From NCBI GenBank assembly GCA_012519925.1, contig JAAYPF010000015.1, forward strand, positions 1-45,769: a stretch of 45,769 nt of DNA. The letters are read 5' to 3'. Origin of the DNA: Clostridiaceae bacterium (lineage in GTDB: Bacteria > Bacillota > Clostridia > Acetivibrionales > Acetivibrionaceae). Of the stretch, positions 12,074 to 22,308 are shown one piece after another. Every line of letters begins with the position of its first letter. The first letter of the stretch is position 1. A model generated the notes under the pieces. It made no database searches. It saw only the letters and a list, made by a program, of their open reading frames with translations, and had not been told where the DNA came from. Both the position numbers and the translations under genes were made by a program.

Positions 12074-12235
12074 CACAAATAAACAAATCATATCCGTTCC
12101 CCCTTCGATAAGATATACTCCATCTCGTCAGGCTTATATGGGATTTTACGAAATTATTCTCGTATAACCCAGCCGATTATAATCCTCGATATTAGGTCTC
12201 TAAACCCCGTATCTCAGATACAAACTATTAAATTA
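12074..12235 (-). ncRNA. Putative structured RNA upstream of hydG
   Basis: The non-coding stretch between the TM1266-type stop and the terminator is unusually rich in stems. These are GTATC-TGA-GATAC (12209-12221), a long hairpin from GGCT (12131) to AGCC (12174) with inner GGG/CCC and TACGA/TCGTA pairs, and a possible ATATC/GATAT stem near 12085-12115. Structure followed by an intrinsic terminator and then a metabolic gene is the classic riboswitch or attenuator layout. I could not match it to any known riboswitch class, and it may instead be a stable 3' UTR. Confidence 0.4.
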
Positions 12236-12249
12236 TTATTACCACCTAA

Positions 12250-12501
12250 TTAATATGTTAAAGCAACTTTTGCTTTAATTCCTTTAATATTACCAAGTTT
12301 ACCAGCTAATGCTCCAATCTCGTCGTTAGTACCGTCTACAATTATGGATATAACTGAAATCTCCTTTTCCCTATATGGCACGCCCATTCTACCCACAATA
12401 ATCGAACCGAAATCACTCAATACATCGTTAACTCTTTTAGACGTTTCTTCACGATTGTTGACTACTATACCAATAACAGCTACCTTGTTTTCCTTTTCCA
12501 T
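12250..12501 (-). CDS. TM1266-type iron-only hydrogenase system regulator
   Basis: This 83-aa ACT/NikR-C-like small protein matches the family named after Thermotoga TM1266. Features are an opening VAVIGIVVNNREE, the VGRMGVPYREKEISVISIIVDG core and the C-terminal GNIKGIKAKVALTY. The family is almost always adjacent to hydrogenase maturation genes and is assumed to be a regulator, though its ligand is not established. It precedes hydG by 300 bp, separated by a structured RNA and terminator. Confidence 0.92.
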   Translation of the reverse strand: MEKENKVAVIGIVVNNREETSKRVNDVLSDFGSIIVGRMGVPYREKEISVISIIVDGTNDEIGALAGKLGNIKGIKAKVALTY

Positions 12502-12535
12502 AATCTAACCTCGTTATTTTTTTAACTATATACTT

Positions 12536-12563
12536 ATTATATCAAATCTACATCGAGTGTAAA
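12536..12563 (-). promoter_or_regulatory. Promoter of the TM1266-type gene
   Basis: On the minus strand TTTACA (12563-12558) is followed after 16 bp by TATAAT (12541-12536), 35 bp before the ATG at 12501. It shows that the maturation cluster can be transcribed independently of the TnpB-like gene upstream. Confidence 0.65.
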
Positions 12564-12573
12564 GCTATTCCAC

Positions 12574-12648
12574 AATAAAAACTACGGAACATCGAGTCCC
12601 TTCGTTTTTGCCTCTTTCACTTCGTTCGAAAGAAGCGTAAATAATAAA
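12574..12648 (-). repeat. Dispersed ~75-bp repeat, copy 1
   Basis: One of three same-orientation copies. On the minus strand it contains a CTTTC...GAAAG hairpin, then AGGCAAAAA, then a stem around a TCGAT loop (GGGAC/GTTCC here), then TTTTTATT, so it also resembles a terminator. The 29-base core with the Ts through CTTTCACTTCGTTCGAAAGA on the plus strand is identical in all three copies. This copy lies directly beyond the putative TnpB-associated RNA. Confidence 0.75.
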
Positions 12649-12649
12649 C

Positions 12650-12784
12650 TGCGGGACTATGTGGTCAATTAACCTTAAGTCGTTTGAGATTTTAGATAGC
12701 TGTCTTTCACAATAAAACATTGTGCTTACTCTGTAAGTTTTAAACCTGAAACGGTTATGGTGTGACAGCTAAAACACCAAAATA
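12650..12784 (-). ncRNA. Putative omega-RNA-like structured RNA beside the TnpB-like gene
   Basis: Directly after the TnpB-like stop codon (minus strand) lies a compact fold. A closing stem pairs 12764-12774 with 12690-12704 (AGCTGTC with GACAGCT plus TTTTAG with CTAAAA around a bulge). It encloses three hairpins: AACC/GGTT (12743-12756), CTTAC/GTAAG (12725-12737) and CACAAT/ATTGTG (12708-12724), the last two abutting. TnpB proteins use an omega-RNA encoded at or just past their 3' end, so the place, strand and size fit. Ends, expression and any guide segment are unknown; the guide would follow the scaffold towards lower coordinates. Confidence 0.5.
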
Positions 12785-14245
12785 TTATACAATTTCTATA
12801 ACACTTCTTAAATCTTCCGCATTTTGGATTTTCTTCATCAAACTAAGTTTTTTCTTTAAATTGTCCTCCTTAGTGAAAGGAAGTCTATTTTTATCAAAGT
12901 TTTCCACTATCTTTTTTAATTCTTCCACTAGCCTTTCAAAAAATAACATATCATGTTCTAAAATAAACTCCACTTCAAGAATGCTATTGCTCACCCTAAC
13001 CTTGTCACCAATTACCTCGGCATTCATCTTTATTGTAGTTTTATTATATTCTATAAGCTTCCTTGCCACATTTATACTTCCAAGTTGTTCAATATCCTTA
13101 ACTGTACCACAATTTGTACAGATAAACAGCGATTCCGACTGTCTGTTCTTATAGCTGAAATTGCGACATACATGGCACCTGTAAAAAATCCCCACCGAAC
13201 TTACTAGAACAGGAGGCGGCAAGCCATAGCTCTTTAATTTGTACTCAATAAGTCCAGTCATTTTATTGTATATTCCCGCACTTATTGCCGGCTTATATTC
13301 ATCACTATAACCCAATCTGTCATTATTCATATTCAATGATTCCACAATTACCTGAGCCTTATTATCCACTGCAAGTTTTGCAATTGCACTGCTCATCTCA
13401 TGCAAATAGTTACTTGTACTTTTGTCAATAGCCTTAAAATTAATATACCCTGTTTTACCTTCAAGTCCATCACTCATTGAAACAACTGTATAGTTGATTT
13501 CGTTTTTTATTCCCCTCGATATTCCAAGATAGTTTATTGTCTCAATGGTAGCACCATCTTCTAAATCTATGGATATGGACAGATAGTACTCATTTCTTCT
13601 TTTGATAAGACGTGCTGTCTTCAGCATACCTTTACATGCTATTGCCTGCTTTAAATATTCTTCTTGCCATTTTCCAAAGCACAATGGAACTAAAATATAT
13701 CTTTCTTTTCTGCCGGTTAGCTCAAGATACTCATCTTCCCTATCTAGATATTTCAATTTCATAGTACCAGAGTGTTGCAGCTCACTTCTATATTCATCCC
13801 TTGAATTCATTAGATATAGTTTAGCATAATACCTATTTTTGATCCCATCGTACAAAATTGAATAATCACGGGTTGTATCATACCTACAAAAGTAGACTGG
13901 TCTGCTTCTAACTTCAGGAAAACCAGCAGCACTATCAACACCCTTTAAATTCAAGTAACTTGCCATTGCCATTCCAAAGTCTAATACAAGTGAATCCTTA
14001 AAAGGTTCCACATCGAATTTGTTGAGTTCTCTAAGGGTCTCTTTACTCACCCATTTTGTAACCCTGTAAGCCTTATAACCTCCATTATCTTCAAAAAACT
14101 TATCCTTTCTGTTCTCAATAGCATAGCGAGCTTTCTCCATCAGATATTCAAAGGCTTTGGAATAGTTATAAATAGCTTTATCAATTATTTCTTTTTTCCT
14201 TTTAGAAGGCTTATAAAGTTTTAATGATACGGTTTTAAGCGGCAT
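12785..14245 (-). CDS. TnpB-like protein with degenerate RuvC active site
   Basis: The 486-aa product starts at an ATG behind AGGAGG. Its N-terminus (VSLKLYKPSKRKKEIIDKAI) and overall order match IS200/IS605 TnpB, the RNA-guided nuclease related to Cas12. RuvC-I reads GISRGIKN at 241-248, with Ser243 where the catalytic Asp of GIDxG should be. RuvC-II Glu302 is kept (VIVESL). The zinc ribbon is kept (C357, C360, C376, C379). RuvC-III reads KDIEQLGSINVA, with Glu386 at the catalytic Asp position and the NAA motif lost. About 85 extra residues follow. DNA cleavage is therefore unlikely, while RNA and DNA binding could persist, as in TldR regulators. No tnpA is nearby. It lies 109 bp after the spoIIE-like gene with no obvious terminator between. 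Confidence 0.8.
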   Translation of the reverse strand: MPLKTVSLKLYKPSKRKKEIIDKAIYNYSKAFEYLMEKARYAIENRKDKFFEDNGGYKAYRVTKWVSKETLRELNKFDVEPFKDSLVLDFGMAMASYLNLKGVDSAAGFPEVRSRPVYFCRYDTTRDYSILYDGIKNRYYAKLYLMNSRDEYRSELQHSGTMKLKYLDREDEYLELTGRKERYILVPLCFGKWQEEYLKQAIACKGMLKTARLIKRRNEYYLSISIDLEDGATIETINYLGISRGIKNEINYTVVSMSDGLEGKTGYINFKAIDKSTSNYLHEMSSAIAKLAVDNKAQVIVESLNMNNDRLGYSDEYKPAISAGIYNKMTGLIEYKLKSYGLPPPVLVSSVGIFYRCHVCRNFSYKNRQSESLFICTNCGTVKDIEQLGSINVARKLIEYNKTTIKMNAEVIGDKVRVSNSILEVEFILEHDMLFFERLVEELKKIVENFDKNRLPFTKEDNLKKKLSLMKKIQNAEDLRSVIEIV

Positions 14246-14354
14246 ATTTAAAACCTCCTAATCCATTTCTAAAACCACCTATTGGTTATAACGCCATTAT
14301 GTCTATTGAATAATTTTACAGAAATGCTAGTTGATAGTTGTTTTTGTTACATAA

Positions 14355-15527
14355 TCAATAATACTCTATTTCCACACGCTTACCTAAGGATTTAAGACAT
14401 TCGGCCATCTCCTTAACCAGCTTAATCTTTAGACCTAAGTCTAAGGGTAATTCGGGGTTCTGATGTGCCGGATTTATCGCCCTACCTATAAAAAAATTCA
14501 CCTTTGTACTCTCTTCTAAAAGCAGCTTAGCAAGCCTTGAAGCACCATCTCTTTTTCCAAGTTCAATTAAATCCTTTATATTTGAACCTGTAGACAAATA
14601 CCTTTTTGCATACTCTAAGGCTTTTCCAAAGGTTAATACCCCTTCCGTCACCAGATCAATACCTTCAATCTCTGCTGTAGGAGGCACCTGTGGATTATAA
14701 TATTTAATATTGGTAGTTATTTTTTTATTCAATACCCTGCTTACAATTTGTGAAGTTGTACCGCCACATACCACCTTTTTTCCTTCACCATCAAAAAATC
14801 TATTAACTACATTTCTATCTTCGTTTTTATTGACAGGTGGACCAATCATTACATTTACAACAACTGGCTTTCTTATCTTTATTGCTGCAACGGTTGTGTC
14901 ATCTCCCGGCTTCCTTGCATACAAGTTTTCACATACCGATAGGAGCAGTTTAACTATGTTTTTTGGTGACAAATCCGATTTATAAATACGTTCAATGTAT
15001 TCACGTACATTATTCCACTGCCAGCCTAAATTTAGTGTAGCCCCAACTCCTGCATGAATGACACCGTCACTGACTAAAATAAACAAATCTTCATAGCTGA
15101 CATTAAACCTGCTTTCCGTTACTAGCTTACCATTAATCATCCTAGTCTGCTTTTCAAGCTCCGACCGCTTTCCCTTCTTCATAAAAAACACCGAAGGATT
15201 GTCAAACTCAACAAGATATCCCTCTCCAGAGTCCATTATCTGAAGAATGGAAAAGGTTGAATAGGCTATATCCCGCTCTCTACAAACAGGCAGGGTACTT
15301 GCAATTGTCTCAACTGCTTCATCAAGACTTAAGCCATTGCTTAACATGGTCGCTATAATCTTACTAGTAAGGGTGGCGAGTATATTAGCCTTTACTCCAC
15401 TTCCAAGACCATCAGCTAATACTATGATGCTAGAGTTGTCGCTTCTAATAATCTCCACCTTGTCACCACAAAGCTCTTCATTAAATTTATTTAGACTTTC
15501 AAAACATGTATCTACATAAATACTCAT
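14355..15527 (-). CDS. SpoIIE/PP2C-type serine phosphatase of the hydrogenase sensor operon
   Basis: The N-terminal 225 residues form a PPM-type phosphatase: VLADGLGSGVKAN with the metal-binding Asp, LFILVSDGVIHAG and KPGDDTTVAAIKI. The remaining 165 residues (VVVNVMIGPP onward) form an uncharacterised domain common to this hydrogenase-linked branch. It overlaps the HydS-like gene by four bases (ATGA), so the two are translationally coupled. Known relatives sit beside sensory [FeFe] hydrogenases in Clostridia and Thermoanaerobacteria. A role in relaying an H2 or redox signal through dephosphorylation is the accepted guess. Its substrate is not visible here. Confidence 0.88.
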   Translation of the reverse strand: MSIYVDTCFESLNKFNEELCGDKVEIIRSDNSSIIVLADGLGSGVKANILATLTSKIIATMLSNGLSLDEAVETIASTLPVCRERDIAYSTFSILQIMDSGEGYLVEFDNPSVFFMKKGKRSELEKQTRMINGKLVTESRFNVSYEDLFILVSDGVIHAGVGATLNLGWQWNNVREYIERIYKSDLSPKNIVKLLLSVCENLYARKPGDDTTVAAIKIRKPVVVNVMIGPPVNKNEDRNVVNRFFDGEGKKVVCGGTTSQIVSRVLNKKITTNIKYYNPQVPPTAEIEGIDLVTEGVLTFGKALEYAKRYLSTGSNIKDLIELGKRDGASRLAKLLLEESTKVNFFIGRAINPAHQNPELPLDLGLKIKLVKEMAECLKSLGKRVEIEYY

Positions 15528-17245
15528 TTGACATCACCGGTTTCCGATAAAATAGAGTTTTTTAGTTTTGTAAGGATAACTTTTGTTTCAGCAGTTGTCT
15601 CTCCAAGTAAGCTTGCAATTTCCTGTGCAACTCTCATCTGCTTTTCTATTACCTTTTGTGCTATATCCACCGTTTCACACTTAACCTTGTAAATTTGCCT
15701 ATTTTGTTTTTCCTCCCGTGTAATATCACGAATAAAAGCAATCACTAGGTCATGTTCCTTTACATATATAATAGATTGTTCTACGGTTACATCATGCTTT
15801 TCATAATAATATTTTCTGTTAAATATATTCCGCTCGGTTTCTCTGACCTCAATAAAGTCGCTACAATCTAAAAGATCATATATATATTTGCCCGTCACAT
15901 CTTCACTGTCAAACTTAAACAGGTTTCTTGCAGCATAATTGGACTCCTGTATCTTAAGTTCCCTGTTTAAAGCAATTATTGCATTTGGGGTAGAATGGAT
16001 AATAATGTTTGAAATAGATTCAGCTCTGTCCCTCATGTATGGCAAACACATATATATCTGTGCCTTGTTGTTATAAACGGCAATAGCCTTTTCTCTACAG
16101 GTTGAATAACCGCAAGCACCACAATTAAGTTCCATTTCACTGCTGAATTTTCCCGTCTTACTCAATATTTCACGAATAGTATTCTCATCAGGAATGTTGT
16201 CGTCTTTTGACGTATTGATAAATACTTTTGAAAGACTTACCTTAGCATCTTGTAAAATATCGGTCCCGATATTTCTACTACTCTTCTTAACATATTCAAT
16301 GAGTCTGTCTCTTGCTTCAAGATAGCCGCCCGTAAGCTTCTTTATACACGGTCCTCTGAGACAACCACCAGCACAATTGTTCATTTCAATAAAATAATTC
16401 TTTGTCTCTCCGTTTTTTATGGAATCGAGTATTTCCATACACCGATCAATTCCATCTATACTGATACATTTATAGTTTTTTCTATCTGGTGTTCCAAGGG
16501 TTTTTAATATTCCTCCTGGTGCAGGATAAAATCTTGATGTGACATTTTTGATACTTTTACTTTCAAATTCTTCATATTCATATAAATCTATATTTTCATT
16601 TTCAAACCATTTTTCCAATTCTTCAAAAGTGATAACTGCATCAACCAAGCCCTGATTTTGCAGATCATTGCACTCTTCCTTCTTAGAAATACAAGGTCCT
16701 ATAAACACCACCTTAATCCTTGGTCCATACATACATTTCATCATTTTGGCATGTGCAATCATTGGAGATACTACCGGTGCAAGATCTTCCAACACCTCTG
16801 GATAGTATTTCTGTATCAGATACACTATAGATGGACATGCTGAGGTTATAATGTTTCTCATCTTTCTTTCTTTTATAAGTTTTTCATATTCTATAGAAAC
16901 AAAGGAAGCTCCAGCTGCTGTCTCTTCCACATAAGTAAATCCAAGTTTTTTTAGTGCTTGAAAAACTACTCGTTCATCCTTCAATCTGAATGCTGATACA
17001 AAGGAAGGTGCTAAGCTTACATAGACCTTTTCATTTTTATTTAAAAAGCCCTTTACCTTTTCCATGTCACTTATTACAGTTTTTGCATTCTGAGGACATA
17101 CCAAAAGACAATTTCCACATAATGTACAGGATTCCTCAATGATTTTTGCCTGATCATCCTGAAAAGCTATTGCATGTACAGGACAGCTCCTTATGCACTT
17201 GTAGCAATTCTTACAATTTGCCTCTTTAAACTGAATAACGCTCAT
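15524..17245 (-). CDS. HydS-like sensory [FeFe] hydrogenase with PAS domain
   Basis: This is a 573-aa multidomain sensor. Two 4Fe-4S ferredoxin motifs lie at C11-C21 and C40-C50, then an H-cluster domain. L1 is TSACPSI, with Ala136 replacing the proton-relay Cys of TSCCPxW; L2 is GPCISKKEE (183-191); L3 is NNCAGGCLRGP. A further Fe-S motif (C375, C378, C383, C400), a PAS domain (about 405-510) and a C-terminal helix follow. These changed loops typify sensory rather than catalytic hydrogenases. It probably binds H2 or senses redox and signals through PAS to the overlapping SpoIIE phosphatase. It sits one base downstream of the ferredoxin gene. Confidence 0.9.
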   Translation of the reverse strand: MSVIQFKEANCKNCYKCIRSCPVHAIAFQDDQAKIIEESCTLCGNCLLVCPQNAKTVISDMEKVKGFLNKNEKVYVSLAPSFVSAFRLKDERVVFQALKKLGFTYVEETAAGASFVSIEYEKLIKERKMRNIITSACPSIVYLIQKYYPEVLEDLAPVVSPMIAHAKMMKCMYGPRIKVVFIGPCISKKEECNDLQNQGLVDAVITFEELEKWFENENIDLYEYEEFESKSIKNVTSRFYPAPGGILKTLGTPDRKNYKCISIDGIDRCMEILDSIKNGETKNYFIEMNNCAGGCLRGPCIKKLTGGYLEARDRLIEYVKKSSRNIGTDILQDAKVSLSKVFINTSKDDNIPDENTIREILSKTGKFSSEMELNCGACGYSTCREKAIAVYNNKAQIYMCLPYMRDRAESISNIIIHSTPNAIIALNRELKIQESNYAARNLFKFDSEDVTGKYIYDLLDCSDFIEVRETERNIFNRKYYYEKHDVTVEQSIIYVKEHDLVIAFIRDITREEKQNRQIYKVKCETVDIAQKVIEKQMRVAQEIASLLGETTAETKVILTKLKNSILSETGDVK

Positions 17246-17968: not shown

Positions 17969-19663
17969 CTACACCTTTTCTTTGTTTAAATGCAACAAAT
18001 GGTGCTTTCCTTTTAGTAGTCCATTGTATAGTGCAATGACCATAGGGTTTTCTTCCGAACGTTTTATCTGGGAAATACTATCAGCATTGTAGATTCCTTT
18101 TGCTCTTTTTTTCGAAATACGATAATCCTTTGGTATAGGCTGACCAGCTCCGCCAATACATCCTCCCTGACATGCCATTACCTCAATAAAATCATAGCTT
18201 TTCTCACCGCTATTTACCATCTCAATAATCTTATCTACGTTTCCAAGTCCATGTATCATAGCGAAATTGTATGTTCTGCCATCTATTTCAAAGGAAGCTT
18301 CCTTTATTCCTGTCATACCTCTTACGCCTTTAAAAGAAATCTCCCTGAGGCTTTCGGAGGTCTTTTCCATAAGACCTCTTCTAATTACAGCCTCAGTCAC
18401 ACCACCCGTTACACCAAACATAACACCGGCACCACTTGAAAGACCTAAAGGCATATCCAAAGATTCTGGGTCAAGCTCGTTAAACACTATTCCTGCTTCA
18501 CGTATCATAGCAGCTAATTCCTGTGTTGTGATAACCGTATCTACATCGTATATTCCATCAGTTTCGCTTTCTGGGCGTGATGCTTCGAACTTTTTAGCAG
18601 TACAGGGCATTATGGATATTACAACCGTCTCTTTTTCCTCTGCTGCATCACTCTTTTTGAAAAACTCCTTAATTACTGTACCAAACATCTGTTGAGGAGA
18701 TTTGCATGAAGAAATATTATTGATTAACTCCGGATGCTTAAGTTCTGCATACCTTACCCATGCTGGACAACAAGATGTAAAAATAGGTAGATTTGTGTTT
18801 GCCTCAATCCGGCTAAAGAATTCCTTTGACTCCTCCATAACTGTTAAGTCGGCGGCTAATGCAGTATCATATACTTGGTCAAATCCTAAACGCTTTAATG
18901 CTGCAGCTATTTTTCCTATGCTCAATTCCCCTGCTTCAAGACCAAATTCTTCTCCTATAGCTACCCTAACCGCTGGTGCTATCTGGGCAACTACTCTTTT
19001 CTTCTTGTCATAAAGCACCTTCCAAACTTTATGGGTTTCATCCTTTATTATCATAGCCCCTGTAGGGCAAACCCTTGTACACTGGCCACAATTTACACAA
19101 TCCACCTCTGCAAGCTTTTTATTAAAAGCCGGCGTAACGGTAAGTTTTGAGCCTCTATAGGCAAATCCAAGTACACCGACACCCTGTACCTCTTCACACA
19201 CTCTCACACAATCTCCACAGGCAATACACTTATTAGGATTGCGTACTATTGATTTACTGCTGTTGTCAATTTCCTGTTTGCCATTGAATTCCTTAAATCT
19301 ATATCCCCTAATTCCAAACTTGTATGCCAATTCCTGAAGCTTACATTTTCCGTTTTTTTCACAGGTTGTGCAATCTCTATCATGGTTTGAAAGCAACAGC
19401 TCTAGAATCATCTTTCTGTGTTTTTGAATTTTAGGAGTATTAGTAAAAATCTCCATACCGTCCTTTGGGATTTCTGAGCAGGAGGCCATAATATTACCCC
19501 ATTTATCCTCTACAATACACATTCTACATGCACCGTAAACACTCAGTTCAGAGTGGTAGCAAAAAGTAGGAAGTTCTATTCCCGCCTTGCGTATAACTTC
19601 GAGCAAATGCTTTTCATTTTCAAATTCAATTCTACGACCATCTACAATCATTGTACCCGCCAT
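17969..19663 (-). CDS. hydA: [FeFe] hydrogenase catalytic subunit HydA
   Basis: This 564-aa subunit makes or oxidises H2. It has an N-terminal 2Fe-2S domain (C35, C46, C49, C62), a His94/C98/C101/C107 cluster and two 4Fe-4S clusters (C146-C156 and C189-C199). The H-cluster loops are TSCCPAW (296-302), MPCTAKKFE (352-360) and MACQGGCIGGAGQP (from 496), all functional. The C-terminal extra ferredoxin domain of the Thermotoga enzyme is absent, as in many clostridial M3-type subunits. It follows hydB by three bases. With HydB and HydC it should form an NAD-linked, probably electron-bifurcating hydrogenase. Confidence 0.96.
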   Translation of the reverse strand: MAGTMIVDGRRIEFENEKHLLEVIRKAGIELPTFCYHSELSVYGACRMCIVEDKWGNIMASCSEIPKDGMEIFTNTPKIQKHRKMILELLLSNHDRDCTTCEKNGKCKLQELAYKFGIRGYRFKEFNGKQEIDNSSKSIVRNPNKCIACGDCVRVCEEVQGVGVLGFAYRGSKLTVTPAFNKKLAEVDCVNCGQCTRVCPTGAMIIKDETHKVWKVLYDKKKRVVAQIAPAVRVAIGEEFGLEAGELSIGKIAAALKRLGFDQVYDTALAADLTVMEESKEFFSRIEANTNLPIFTSCCPAWVRYAELKHPELINNISSCKSPQQMFGTVIKEFFKKSDAAEEKETVVISIMPCTAKKFEASRPESETDGIYDVDTVITTQELAAMIREAGIVFNELDPESLDMPLGLSSGAGVMFGVTGGVTEAVIRRGLMEKTSESLREISFKGVRGMTGIKEASFEIDGRTYNFAMIHGLGNVDKIIEMVNSGEKSYDFIEVMACQGGCIGGAGQPIPKDYRISKKRAKGIYNADSISQIKRSEENPMVIALYNGLLKGKHHLLHLNKEKV

Positions 19664-19666
19664 TTT

Positions 19667-21601
19667 TTAGACCTCCTTTATAGCCTTGAAAGGACATGCA
19701 TCAATACATGCACCGCATTTTATACACCTGTCCCCAATTATTCTGAAAGTTTCCTTTATTTTTCCTTGAATCGCTCCTGCCGGACATACCCTCTGACATT
19801 TCGAGCACCCCTTACACAAGTTCCCGTCTATAGTAAATGACGTCAATCCTTTGCAGGTTTTAGTAGAACATCTTTTATTCACCACATGCTCAATATATTC
19901 ATCCTTGAAGTATTTCATTGTACTTATAACGGGTCCAGCTGCCGTTTTTCCAAGTCCGCACAGAGCAGTACTGCTAACCGTATCTGCCAATTCCTCCAAT
20001 AAGTCCAAATCTTCTAGTGTGCCCTTTCCAGAAACTATATTCTCCATAATTTCCAGCATCCGTTTTGTACCTTCTCTGCAAGGAACGCATTTGCCACAGG
20101 ATTCATTTTGAGTAAAGTTCATAAAGAACCTAGCAACTTCAACCATACATGTGTCTTCATCCATAACCACTAGACCGCCAGAACCGATCATTGCTCCAAC
20201 TTTCTTAAGAGAATCGAAGTCTAACGGCATATCTAAGTGTTCTTCAACAAGGCACCCTCCAGAAGGACCTCCAATCTGCACAGCTTTAAACTTCTTATCA
20301 TCCTTAATTCCTCCGCCAATACCAAAAATCACTTCACGCAAGCTTGTGCCCATCGGAACTTCTATTAGACCTGTATTATTAACATTTCCTGTTATTGCAA
20401 AAGCCTTTGTTCCCGGGCTTTTTTCTGGACCTATGGACTTAAACCACGTGCTGCCTTTTGATATAATAAGGGGTACATTGGCAAAGGTTTCAACATTATT
20501 TAAAACAGTAGGTTTTGCCCAAAGTCCTGCTTCAACAGTCCGAGGAGGCTTAACCCTTGGCATACCTCTTTCTCCTTCTATCGAGGCTGTAAGTGCACTA
20601 CCTTCTCCACATACAAAAGCACCAGCACCCTGATTTACATGTATATCAAAATCAAAGCCAGAATCCAAAATATTCTTTCCTAAGATTCCAAAGCTTCTAG
20701 CCTTTTCAATTGCTGTATTTATTCTTTCAACAGCTAAAGGATATTCAGCTCTTACATAAATATATCCTTCCGAACTTCCTGTAGCATATCCGGCAATCAT
20801 CATGCCTTCTATAAGTCTGTGAGGGTCTCCCTCCATAAGACTTCTATCCATAAATGCTCCAGGATCACCTTCATCTCCATTACAAACAACATATTTAGTT
20901 TCAGACTTCTGTGCTAAAACCTGAGCCCACTTCCTTCCTGCTGGATAACCTCCACCACCTCTTCCTCTTAAATTTGAGGCTATAATATCCTTACAGATTT
21001 CATCGGGAGTCATCTTTGTTAAAGCCTTGGCTAAAGCTTTGTAACCGCCTTTAGCTATATATTCCTCAATTGCCTCAGCATCGATACTACCACAGTGTTC
21101 TAGAACCATCCTTGTCTGTTTTTTATAGAAGGAAATTGACTCTTGTGTCTCATATATTTTCTCTGTTAGCTCTATCGGGCTTTTAGCCTTGGTAAATTTT
21201 ATCTCTTTTACTTCCTCAGTAAGAGTGGAACATCTATACATAAGTCTTGTTATTGGTTTTTTGTTTATTAATGTTTCTTCTACTATCTCTTCACAATCTT
21301 CTACTTTTACACCAATATATAAGTAATTGAAAGGCTCAATTCTTACTAGGGGACCCATTTCGCAAAAACCGTGGCATCCGCTTTTCTTTATGCCAATACC
21401 TTTCTTTTCTTCCTCTAGTCTTACATATGCCAAAAGCCCTTTGTTTTTAACAAGTTCAATTAGTCTTTCGTATATTTCTATTGAACCACTTGCTACACAT
21501 CCTGTTCCTCCACAAACCAAAACTTTTATTTCCTGTAAATCAAGTTTTTCGTGAAACTTTATTGAAGCTTCTTCTAATTCCTTGACACTCTTTATTCTCA
21601 T
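19667..21601 (-). CDS. hydB: HydB, NuoF-like FMN and NADH-binding hydrogenase subunit
   Basis: This 644-aa subunit joins a thioredoxin-fold 2Fe-2S domain (VLVCGGTGCVASGS, residues about 27-115) to a NuoF core. The core has the NADH/FMN motifs LRGRGGGGYPAGRKW and VCNGDEGDPGAFMDR, an SLBB region, and the NuoF cluster site ESCGKCVPCREG. Two C-terminal 4Fe-4S ferredoxin motifs follow (CKGCSKCQRVCP and CIKCGACIDACP). It binds NAD(H) and splits electrons between NAD and ferredoxin in bifurcating enzymes. Its ATG overlaps the hydC stop by four bases. Confidence 0.95.
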   Translation of the reverse strand: MRIKSVKELEEASIKFHEKLDLQEIKVLVCGGTGCVASGSIEIYERLIELVKNKGLLAYVRLEEEKKGIGIKKSGCHGFCEMGPLVRIEPFNYLYIGVKVEDCEEIVEETLINKKPITRLMYRCSTLTEEVKEIKFTKAKSPIELTEKIYETQESISFYKKQTRMVLEHCGSIDAEAIEEYIAKGGYKALAKALTKMTPDEICKDIIASNLRGRGGGGYPAGRKWAQVLAQKSETKYVVCNGDEGDPGAFMDRSLMEGDPHRLIEGMMIAGYATGSSEGYIYVRAEYPLAVERINTAIEKARSFGILGKNILDSGFDFDIHVNQGAGAFVCGEGSALTASIEGERGMPRVKPPRTVEAGLWAKPTVLNNVETFANVPLIISKGSTWFKSIGPEKSPGTKAFAITGNVNNTGLIEVPMGTSLREVIFGIGGGIKDDKKFKAVQIGGPSGGCLVEEHLDMPLDFDSLKKVGAMIGSGGLVVMDEDTCMVEVARFFMNFTQNESCGKCVPCREGTKRMLEIMENIVSGKGTLEDLDLLEELADTVSSTALCGLGKTAAGPVISTMKYFKDEYIEHVVNKRCSTKTCKGLTSFTIDGNLCKGCSKCQRVCPAGAIQGKIKETFRIIGDRCIKCGACIDACPFKAIKEV

Positions 21602-22065
21602 TTTTCTTCCTCCTTCCTGATACCATCAAGCAGTTCTAATACATGCTCAGGAGTTACCTTAGGATAAACTTTATCATTTATAGTTATTACTGGTGCTAAG
21701 CCACATGCTCCAAGGCAAGATACCGTCTCAACAGTAAATAGCAAATCATCAGTAGTTTTCTTTTCTTCACTTAAATCAAGTTCAGTTCTTAGAGCATTTA
21801 AGATAGGAATAGATTTTTTTACATGACACGCAGTTCCGTCACATATTTTAATTACATACTTACCCTTAGGCTCAAGGGAAAAGTTTTCATAAAAAGTTGC
21901 TACACTAAATACCTTTGATGGTGTAATCTTCATCCTCTTTGCTACAAGCATTAAAGATTCTTCAGATAAATACCTGTATTCTTTTTGTATGTCTTGGAGT
22001 ACCATTATTAAAGAAGATTTTTTCCCATCACGTCTATCAATTATGTCTTTTATTTTATCTGGCAT
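21598..22065 (-). CDS. hydC: HydC, NuoE-like 2Fe-2S hydrogenase subunit
   Basis: This 155-aa protein has the NuoE layout: an N-terminal helical part (YRYLSEESLMLVAKRM) and a C-terminal thioredoxin-fold domain. The 2Fe-2S ligands lie in CDGTACHVKKS and CLGACGLAP. It is first in hydCBA; its start is the ATG at 22065 behind GAGGGG. The promoter and a Rex-type operator are upstream. Confidence 0.94.
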   Translation of the reverse strand: MPDKIKDIIDRRDGKKSSLIMVLQDIQKEYRYLSEESLMLVAKRMKITPSKVFSVATFYENFSLEPKGKYVIKICDGTACHVKKSIPILNALRTELDLSEEKKTTDDLLFTVETVSCLGACGLAPVITINDKVYPKVTPEHVLELLDGIRKEEEK

Positions 22066-22130: not shown

Positions 22131-22148
22131 TTGTTAAATTTATAACAA
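22131..22148 (-). promoter_or_regulatory. Rex-type operator of hydCBA
   Basis: The plus-strand sequence TTGTTAAATTTATAACAA matches 13 of the 14 defined bases in the Rex consensus. It begins four bases beyond the -10 box of the hydCBA promoter, so bound Rex would occlude transcription. Confidence 0.75.
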
Positions 22149-22152
22149 TTTC

Positions 22153-22181
22153 ATTTTAGGCTAGATTTAACGCTACAACAA
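22153..22181 (-). promoter_or_regulatory. Promoter of hydCBA
   Basis: TTGTTG (22181-22176) and TAAAAT (22158-22153) with a 17-bp spacer, about 90 bp before the hydC ATG. Confidence 0.6.
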
Positions 22182-22308
22182 CAATTAAATTTTTTTTTGT
22201 TCTTTTGAGAGTTGAGATTTATATTATTAGATACGGTTTTTATAGGTAAACTCAATTAACTAGTGGCTTATTTGTAATACCACTGTATGGAAATTAATAC
22301 AATCAATC

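Follow-up and report, generated by a model that had tools for sequence, protein, structure and literature searches.

A nuclease-dead TnpB-like protein with its own omegaRNA-like RNA as a probable RNA-guided regulator of hydrogenase genes in Clostridia

The DNA analyzed here, called the window, is a stretch of 45,769 nucleotides (nt; contig JAAYPF010000015.1, assembly GCA_012519925.1) from a Clostridiaceae bacterium of the family Acetivibrionaceae. It encodes a nuclease-dead protein resembling TnpB and Cas12f and, directly after the stop codon, a conserved RNA sequence, and we consider it probable that the gene and the RNA together constitute an RNA-guided transcription factor, likely an activator, which is tied to a neighboring pair of H2 sensor and phosphatase. 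This proposal is based on the fold with its lost active site, a conserved operon, a covarying RNA, and candidate target sites with their spacing from promoters, all of which are found by comparison of sequences and models. In an earlier sequence-only reading of the region, the gene was proposed to encode a regulator that is domesticated, nuclease-dead, and RNA-guided and has a link to H2 metabolism, and this is supported here, the function being putative; for the mode of action that reading cited repression by TldRs, and the site geometry points to activation instead. Candidate targets, which combine a motif resembling a transposon-adjacent motif (TAM) with the letters of the RNA tail upstream of hydrogenase and redox genes, are an addition to that reading. 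The protein gene is as follows.

12785..14245, minus strand: gene for the nuclease-dead TnpB/Cas12f-like protein of 486 amino acids (aa); RuvC-I Asp changed to S243, RuvC-III Asp changed to E386, RuvC-II E302 kept, LGS in place of the NAA motif; zinc ribbon C357/C360/C376/C379; extra C-terminal domain at about residues 400-486

Matches of this protein to TnpB and Cas12f families lie in its C-terminal half and are all under the curated cut-offs of Pfam and NCBIfam; the fold was modelled with AlphaFold from a 26-row alignment (mean predicted local distance difference test score, pLDDT, 85.5; predicted template modelling score, pTM, 0.56). The top match of Foldseek among solved structures was AsCas12f (E 2.2e-16), and the structures 9n9c and 9n9m of PDB, a dCas12f-gRNA complex by title, were also among the matches. 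VIA-align superposed the model on Cas12f with Z 20.8 over 339 residues (root mean square deviation, rmsd, 5.2) and on TnpB 8h1j with Z 15.3 over 309 residues (rmsd 5.7), while a family profile retrieved Cas12f/TnpB chains by sequence too (best E 1.5e-11). As modelled, the protein has a Cas12f/TnpB-like fold, in agreement with its earlier naming as a TnpB.

When five intact TnpBs from the same class, with their D/E/D residues, were aligned with the protein, the catalytic columns were clear, and the positions of S243, E302, and E386 were confirmed. The RuvC-I Asp is absent in 26/26 aligned family members (S in 16, A in 6, T in 2, G and V in 1 each), and the RuvC-III position is occupied by E in 17, D in 6, K in 2, and G in 1, so that Asp is kept there in 6/26. 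The RuvC-II Glu, which the sequence-only reading described as kept, is present in the window protein and is not a family trait, being retained in 9/26. Arg244, Asp309, and the four zinc-ribbon cysteines are invariant across the 26 members, and an intact DDE set elsewhere in the protein was not seen in the family alignments. Judged from these columns, the RuvC active site of the family is inactivated. The approximately 85 extra C-terminal residues are likewise real and found family-wide; the model of residues 400-486 consists for the most part of three strands and two helices (pLDDT 83.6), with the antitoxin SWOL_0700 structure 3k6q as best fold match (E 3e-3, query TM 0.67). This top match is insufficient for naming a function from the fold search, and it is a guess that the domain may contact RNA polymerase or the phosphatase.

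The structured RNA that had been noticed after the stop codon starts 4 nt past it and matches our covariance model over 93 nt, with the following parts.

12689..12781, minus strand: omegaRNA-like scaffold and guide start, supported by covariation (71.3 bits, E 2.7e-18, the window being one of the 28 rows from which the model was built)
12778-12775 (GGTG) with 12762-12759 (CACC), minus strand: hairpin P1
12737-12725, minus strand: hairpin CTTAC-AGA-GTAAG
12770-12764 (AGCTGTC) with 12704-12698 (GACAGC plus T), minus strand: long-range pseudoknot, pairing possible by sequence
12679..12698, minus strand: proposed guide segment, beginning TATCTAA directly after the pseudoknot core strand

Directly 3' of the stop codon, four close genomes share about 78 nt that hardly vary, and the conserved RNA sequence was found in 32/32 distinct 3' flanks of the family. 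Its 5' hairpin presents a loop, GCUGC, that pairs with a GCAGC on the 3' side, and is followed by a second hairpin (for example GCUUACAGAGUAAGC), by variable hairpins, and lastly by the tail. The long-range helix was recovered unprompted by RNAalifold. The covariation set and the covariance model comprise 28/32 flanks, omitting L052 and L053 (near-copies) and L081 and L090 (long inserts); labels with L and G are our own for loci and genomes. The 5-bp pseudoknot core pairs in 28/28 rows, with changes on both sides in five rows (GC to AU) at one pair and in one row at another, and the hairpin shows changes on both sides at five of its six pairs; four Christensenella rows, which are shifted by one base in the alignment, reduce the counts for P1. 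With the pseudoknot, the covariation score was 0.381 against 0.201 +/- 0.014 in shuffles, none of the 500 being as high, although related rows can outscore shuffles even without structure.

In each of the 14 bearing genomes, the covariance model detected one strong copy, which lies at the gene (E <=5e-14), and across 17 genomes no further copy was better than E 0.0018; three genomes without the gene gave no RNA match better than E 0.4. At 27/27 gene loci the RNA model matched, most of these being training rows, with L081 and L090 outside the training set, and at 23/23 control phosphatase loci without the gene neither an RNA match nor a protein match was found. Rfam gave nothing better than E 5.7 for window positions 12200-14800 and, at gathering cut-offs, two tRNAs only in five related loci. 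By its sequence and covariation, the RNA is like an omegaRNA closed by a covarying pseudoknot. A second conserved non-coding block is present in L051-L054, about 195-310 nt past the stop codon and before a gene for a membrane protein of 286-287 aa; we take it to look like a yybP-ykoY leader, and none was reported for L072 by Rfam at gathering cut-offs.

After GCAGC, the tail reads UAUCU(A/G), with UAUUUA in the Caproiciproducens-type group and UAUCCA in L071. A strong hairpin (-18.8 kcal/mol or lower), read as a terminator, was predicted in 29/32 flanks within the next 75 nt (43 nt in L081, where the stored stretch ends). Because this hairpin usually starts about 5-18 nt past the scaffold, there is room for a short guide only. 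The window and L073 are without a strong tail hairpin, the window having a weak terminator-like site at 12600-12586, and the extracted flank of L090 is too short to tell. Exact tail matches of at least 9 nt within each locus were scattered only. In the 32 loci, 7-9-mers from the start of a tail were enriched in intergenic DNA of the same locus when compared with tails of other species (7-mer at offset 1, 15/32 against 6.3 expected; 9-mer at offset 0, 4 against 0.9), this being the best of 36 combinations of length and offset and weak taken alone.

The places matched by the tail have AAAACCN upstream in common, which we infer to be TAM-like. With the RNA masked, CCGTATCTA was the most shared intergenic 9-mer, found in 10/22 representative loci among k-mers with at least three G/C. 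The motif occurs at 22 sites in 51.7 kb at the 32 gene loci, 21 of them on the operon strand, and at 0 sites in 16.8 kb at 21 control loci, which contain less intergenic DNA; two of the 23 controls, L125 and L126, were dropped since no SpoIIE was among the frames picked. In the window, the site and its surroundings are as follows.

22227..22241, minus strand: candidate target upstream of the hydABC-type operon, TAM-like AAAAACCG at 22241-22234, then TATCTAA at 22233-22227, 7 nt identical to the guide start
22153..22181, minus strand: predicted promoter TTGTTG-17 nt-TAAAAT, the -35 beginning 52 bp past the first guide-matched base
22131..22148, minus strand: Rex-operator-like palindrome TTGTTATAAATTTAACAA downstream of the predicted promoter, recognized in the sequence by its likeness to the Rex consensus

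In its own genome, the site at 22227-22241 is the sole intergenic match to either of the two searched patterns, AAAACCDTATCTA and AAACCNTATCTRA. Across the 14 bearing genomes, 14/26 matches to AAAACCDTATCTA are intergenic, and all of these lie upstream of a NuoE/HydS, NfnA-like, or alcohol-dehydrogenase gene, with a 63-aa open reading frame (ORF) intervening once. In 10 non-bearing genomes, 1/16 was intergenic, before an xre-like gene, and one more lay in a 71-aa frame. All three matches in G167 precede NuoE-type genes (Pfam PF01257). The looser AAACCNTATCTRA gave 15/33 intergenic matches in eight bearing genomes, 13 of them before hydrogenase, nfnA-like, or alcohol-dehydrogenase genes, and 1/10 in three non-bearing genomes. 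Altogether, sites were found upstream of hydrogenase genes in 20 genomes, Ruminiclostridium hungatei having GCC instead of ACC; nfnA-like genes, which belong to the PRK06222 subfamily, have a site in 3/4 genomes of our group f27 (L151, L195, and L197). The relevant promoter regions of L071, L074, L076, L081, L086, and L090 are only partly in view. The motif with TATCTGA also occurs within a coding frame of 183-196 aa in four f27 genomes (L139, L141, L142, and L149), which is probably coding conservation.

Agreement between guide and site was compared at 34 listed sites, where CC and TAT were search terms, so that the constancy of these bases is not a result. Counted from the first base of the guide, guide and site are identical over 5-10 nt at 32 of the 34. 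At position 4, T is present in 3/3 sites where the RNA has T, that is, in three Caproiciproducens-type genomes with TATTTA in both tail and site, and in 1/31 where the RNA has C. At position 6, G is present in 5/18 sites where the RNA has G and in 0/16 where it has A. The base directly before the match is G, A, or T and never C as in the RNA. The mean run with a genome's own guide was 6.06 against 5.21 under permutation of species (p 2e-4), a value that is optimistic because the species are related and the motif used for the site list was partly found through the tail. For one TldR, a 6-nt seed is reported to be enough (PMC13418256).

The distance from site to promoter was obtained by a blind scan for the best -35/-10 pair within 100 bp downstream of the site at 25 promoters, many of which are orthologues, so that the counts are not independent. 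The -35 was at +52 to +54 in 13/25 promoters and at +42 in 3/25, with 17-bp spacers, and in the rest at 3, 39, 46, 50, 57, 64, 76, 82, and 98. Ten promoters scored above their own shuffles at p <=0.03, and all ten are at 42 or 52-54. The window promoter is not above shuffles by itself (p 0.88), and its position agrees with other genomes; unrelated promoters agree in spacing too, for example that of the Fe-type alcohol-dehydrogenase gene of G095, a weak promoter (p 0.30). In L058 and L059 at least, Rex-like palindromes likewise lie past the promoter. The first guide base lies about 78-90 bp upstream of the inferred transcription start. For engineered activation by CRISPR (CRISPRa) in bacteria, PMC7113249 describes an effective window of about 40 bases centred about 80 bases upstream of the start, with a period of 10-11 bases. 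Because the site spacing here is like that of engineered CRISPRa, activation is favored over TldR-like repression.

The genes around the tnpB-like gene in the window, including the operon proposed as regulated, are listed below.

14355..15527, minus strand: SpoIIE-type (PP2C) phosphatase, conserved partner by synteny (PF07228, E 3.1e-16)
15524..17245, minus strand: HydS-type [FeFe] hydrogenase with PAS domain (PF02906, PF04060, PF00989), by its family a putative H2/redox sensor
17969-19663, minus strand: HydA, in the operon 17969..22065, which is for an NADH-linked [FeFe] hydrogenase and is proposed as regulated
19667-21601, minus strand: NuoF/HydB-type gene of the same hydABC-type operon
21598-22065, minus strand: NuoE/HydC-type gene of the same operon
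12250..12501, minus strand: TM1266-type putative regulator (TIGR03959), downstream of the tnpB-like gene and outside the conserved core

Relatives were collected as 13 full-length members from 391 genomes of the class and 26 full loci from named records, which with the window make 40 loci, 32 of them distinct; a 27th named-record match, L092, is partial and was left out of the count. The genera include Ruminiclostridium, Petroclostridium, Christensenella, Caproiciproducens, and Caloramator, and Clostridium rhizosphaerae also belongs here. A SpoIIE-type gene on the same strand precedes the tnpB-like gene in 40/40 loci (32 distinct), and a HydS/HydA-type gene stands next to spoIIE on the same strand in 39/40, the contig of L076 ending there. 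Relatives are thus not scattered at random as ordinary insertion sequences (IS). An adhE-family gene lies between in seven loci from five distinct genomes, three of which (L057, L058, and L059) were confirmed by Pfam. The conserved core, as read from gene order, is hydS-spoIIE-(adhE)-tnpB-like-RNA; of the synteny earlier put forward as a check, the hydS-spoIIE part held across the family and the TM1266-type gene fell outside it. The partner ORF is shortened to 220-247 aa in the Caproiciproducens-type loci L084, L085, L086, and L088.

Full-length members were found in 14/391 genomes of the class sample and a SpoIIE-type phosphatase (E 1e-40) in 107/391, and all 14 fall within the 107. Each of the 12 closest phosphatases in the 391 genomes comes from a genome with the dead TnpB, and pairwise distances of the two proteins correlate (Pearson r 0.79); a close phosphatase without dead TnpB was present in 4/13 other genomes of the same family, and three such loci were inspected. 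In a midpoint-rooted tree a single branch (support 99/99) separates the family from the five intact TnpBs, and the ratio of nonsynonymous to synonymous substitution rates (dN/dS) was 0.08-0.12 in six pairs among four close genomes. The family is, by these comparisons, one group under purifying selection. Single-protein scans of genome contigs and viral contigs and a profile scan of viral contigs gave no relatives, and phage and plasmid records gave weak TnpB-like matches only (2 and 3 records). Pseudoalteromonas phage J2-1 and a P. spongiae plasmid encode TnpB-like proteins about 26% identical over residues 115-402 and 115-394, which are distant relatives outside Clostridia.

Our explanation is that the dead TnpB-like protein would hold the omegaRNA-like scaffold closed by the pseudoknot, and that the short tail would read DNA beside AAAACCN upstream of hydrogenase genes and, in some genomes, also upstream of nfnA-like and alcohol-dehydrogenase genes. 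The bound complex would mostly have 42 or 52-54 bp between its site and the -35 downstream, roughly at positions -78 to -90 relative to the inferred start, where the protein would most likely contact RNA polymerase, perhaps via its extra C-terminal domain, and so activate transcription, with the output probably set by the neighboring HydS-type sensor and SpoIIE-type phosphatase. Expression of the RNA, binding of RNA and DNA, activation in preference to repression, and the signalling link are the inferred steps of this scheme. A bolder version, to which we assign about even chances, would be a natural CRISPRa in which the H2-sensing hydrogenase and the phosphatase control a vertically inherited dead TnpB, whose conserved guide of about 6-10 nt activates a multi-gene hydrogen and redox regulon in Clostridia, with sites kept on one face of the helix relative to the -35.

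Besides the limits given above for the control loci, the permutation, and the orthologous promoters, several points weigh against RNA-guided activation. The pTM of the model is only 0.56. Matches are short, with a run of 3 in L052 (mismatch at position 4) and of 4 nt at one proximal L057 site, and 13/18 sites in genomes with UAUCUG tails are without the G. Most shuffles reach the best promoter score in 5/25 promoters, the window's included, and the nfnA-like and two alcohol-dehydrogenase promoters have other spacings or weak promoters. Two of the 15 intergenic AAACCNTATCTRA sites, near-identical and from G095, precede a DUF4351 gene and not a redox gene. Four Christensenella genomes are without a convincing site in motif searches, one of which gave the context of 30 of its 52 matches, and two Caloramator genomes have degenerate sites only. 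In the Christensenella locus L062 (1554-1568, minus strand; tail UAUCUGU), two copies of TATCTGT lie 14 bp apart upstream of a 221-aa gene adjoining the hyd operon, and these are possible divergent targets.

With the same RNA and sites, the bound protein could instead block transcription of the hydrogenase and redox operons, as an RNA-guided repressor like TldR. TldRs are described as repressors, for one of which the short seed mentioned above suffices, and the four f27 genomes L057, L058, L059, and L060 each have two sites in tandem at a distance of 29-31 bp; the proximal site starts 23 bp ahead of TTGACA, from where a bound protein could reach the promoter. We regard this as unlikely, because the sites stand upstream of the predicted promoter and not over it, at the repeated spacings of 42 and 52-54 bp, and keep a near-constant orientation as expected for activation. 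Less probable still is that the promoter motif, which has the look of an ordinary conserved site of redox promoters, serves as operator for a conventional regulator, its likeness to the tail being coincidental and the protein and RNA doing something else. The four Christensenella genomes, which keep gene and RNA with no site found, would fit this, but the stretch identical to the RNA starts immediately past the pseudoknot core, the Caproiciproducens-type genomes carry the same letter in tail and site at a variable base, and the motif, which is unlike the consensus of the Rex operator, gave no match at the control spoIIE loci lacking the gene.

A role as scaffold or structural partner only, such as titration of the phosphatase, in which the RNA would serve as cofactor and have no DNA target, would account for the tight gene link to spoIIE and the antitoxin-like model of the C-terminal domain (3k6q, E 3e-3), but the match of promoter sites to the RNA tail makes it very improbable. 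That the gene is an ordinary or decaying accessory gene of an IS200/IS605 element which landed here by chance, as TnpB-like homology alone might suggest, is refuted by synteny (the same operon in 40/40 loci) and has hardly any probability left, given its single copy in the 3.9-Mb genome, the family-wide loss of catalytic residues, purifying selection, and the lack, as noted earlier, of tnpA nearby, TnpA (PF01797) having no match in the window and three on other contigs of the same genome.

Among known systems, the nearest are the TldRs, which are reportedly TnpB-like nuclease-dead repressors associated with fliC and csrA. Both are TnpB descendants with an inactivated RuvC and a host-gene association, both have a guide RNA encoded just downstream (here a putative one, by sequence and covariation only), with short guides (6 nt) being enough, and in both the guide, here a proposed one, matches a host promoter next to a TAM-like motif, here upstream of hydrogenase genes in the 20 genomes. 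The present family differs in its partnership with an H2-sensor/phosphatase operon in many Clostridia, its guide, in which about 5-10 nt are matched and which in most cases ends at a hairpin, its extra C-terminal domain, its activator-like site geometry, and its hydrogenase and redox candidate targets. A dead Cas12f with a dedicated sigma factor performs RNA-guided transcription, and a dead Cas12f-like protein is common to both systems; here the promoters are of the housekeeping -35/-10 type, the candidate targets are hydrogenase and redox operons, and no sigma-factor domain was found among 24 Pfam-scanned proteins (13 from the window), a subset of neighbor genes across genomes. Cas12f and TnpB nucleases share the fold, the zinc ribbon, and a 3' RNA with a pseudoknot, which is the architecture of omegaRNA, whereas the family here has lost the active site, has an extra C-terminal domain, and is present in single copy with no sign of mobility. 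Active IS200/IS605 TnpB has an intact D-E-D and either tnpA alongside or several copies, none of which applies here (copies and tnpA judged in the window's own genome). Engineered CRISPRa with dCas9-SoxS, in PMC7113249, shares sites about 80 bases upstream of the start and helical periodicity, and the system here differs in being natural, apparently of one protein, and with a short guide.

We found no hydrogenase-linked dead TnpB among the titles and abstract openings of open-licence papers, and earlier reports may exist. If the proposal is true, RNA-guided transcription factors would be core, long-conserved metabolic regulators in Clostridia such as Ruminiclostridium and Caproiciproducens, beyond their use as tools of phages and transposons. 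The system would represent an RNA-guided activator of natural origin that has predicted targets, a compact guide, and its own path from a sensor, and a new natural form of the RNA-programmed gene control that humans have engineered from CRISPR. It would also give a possible answer to how HydS-type sensory hydrogenases relay their signal.

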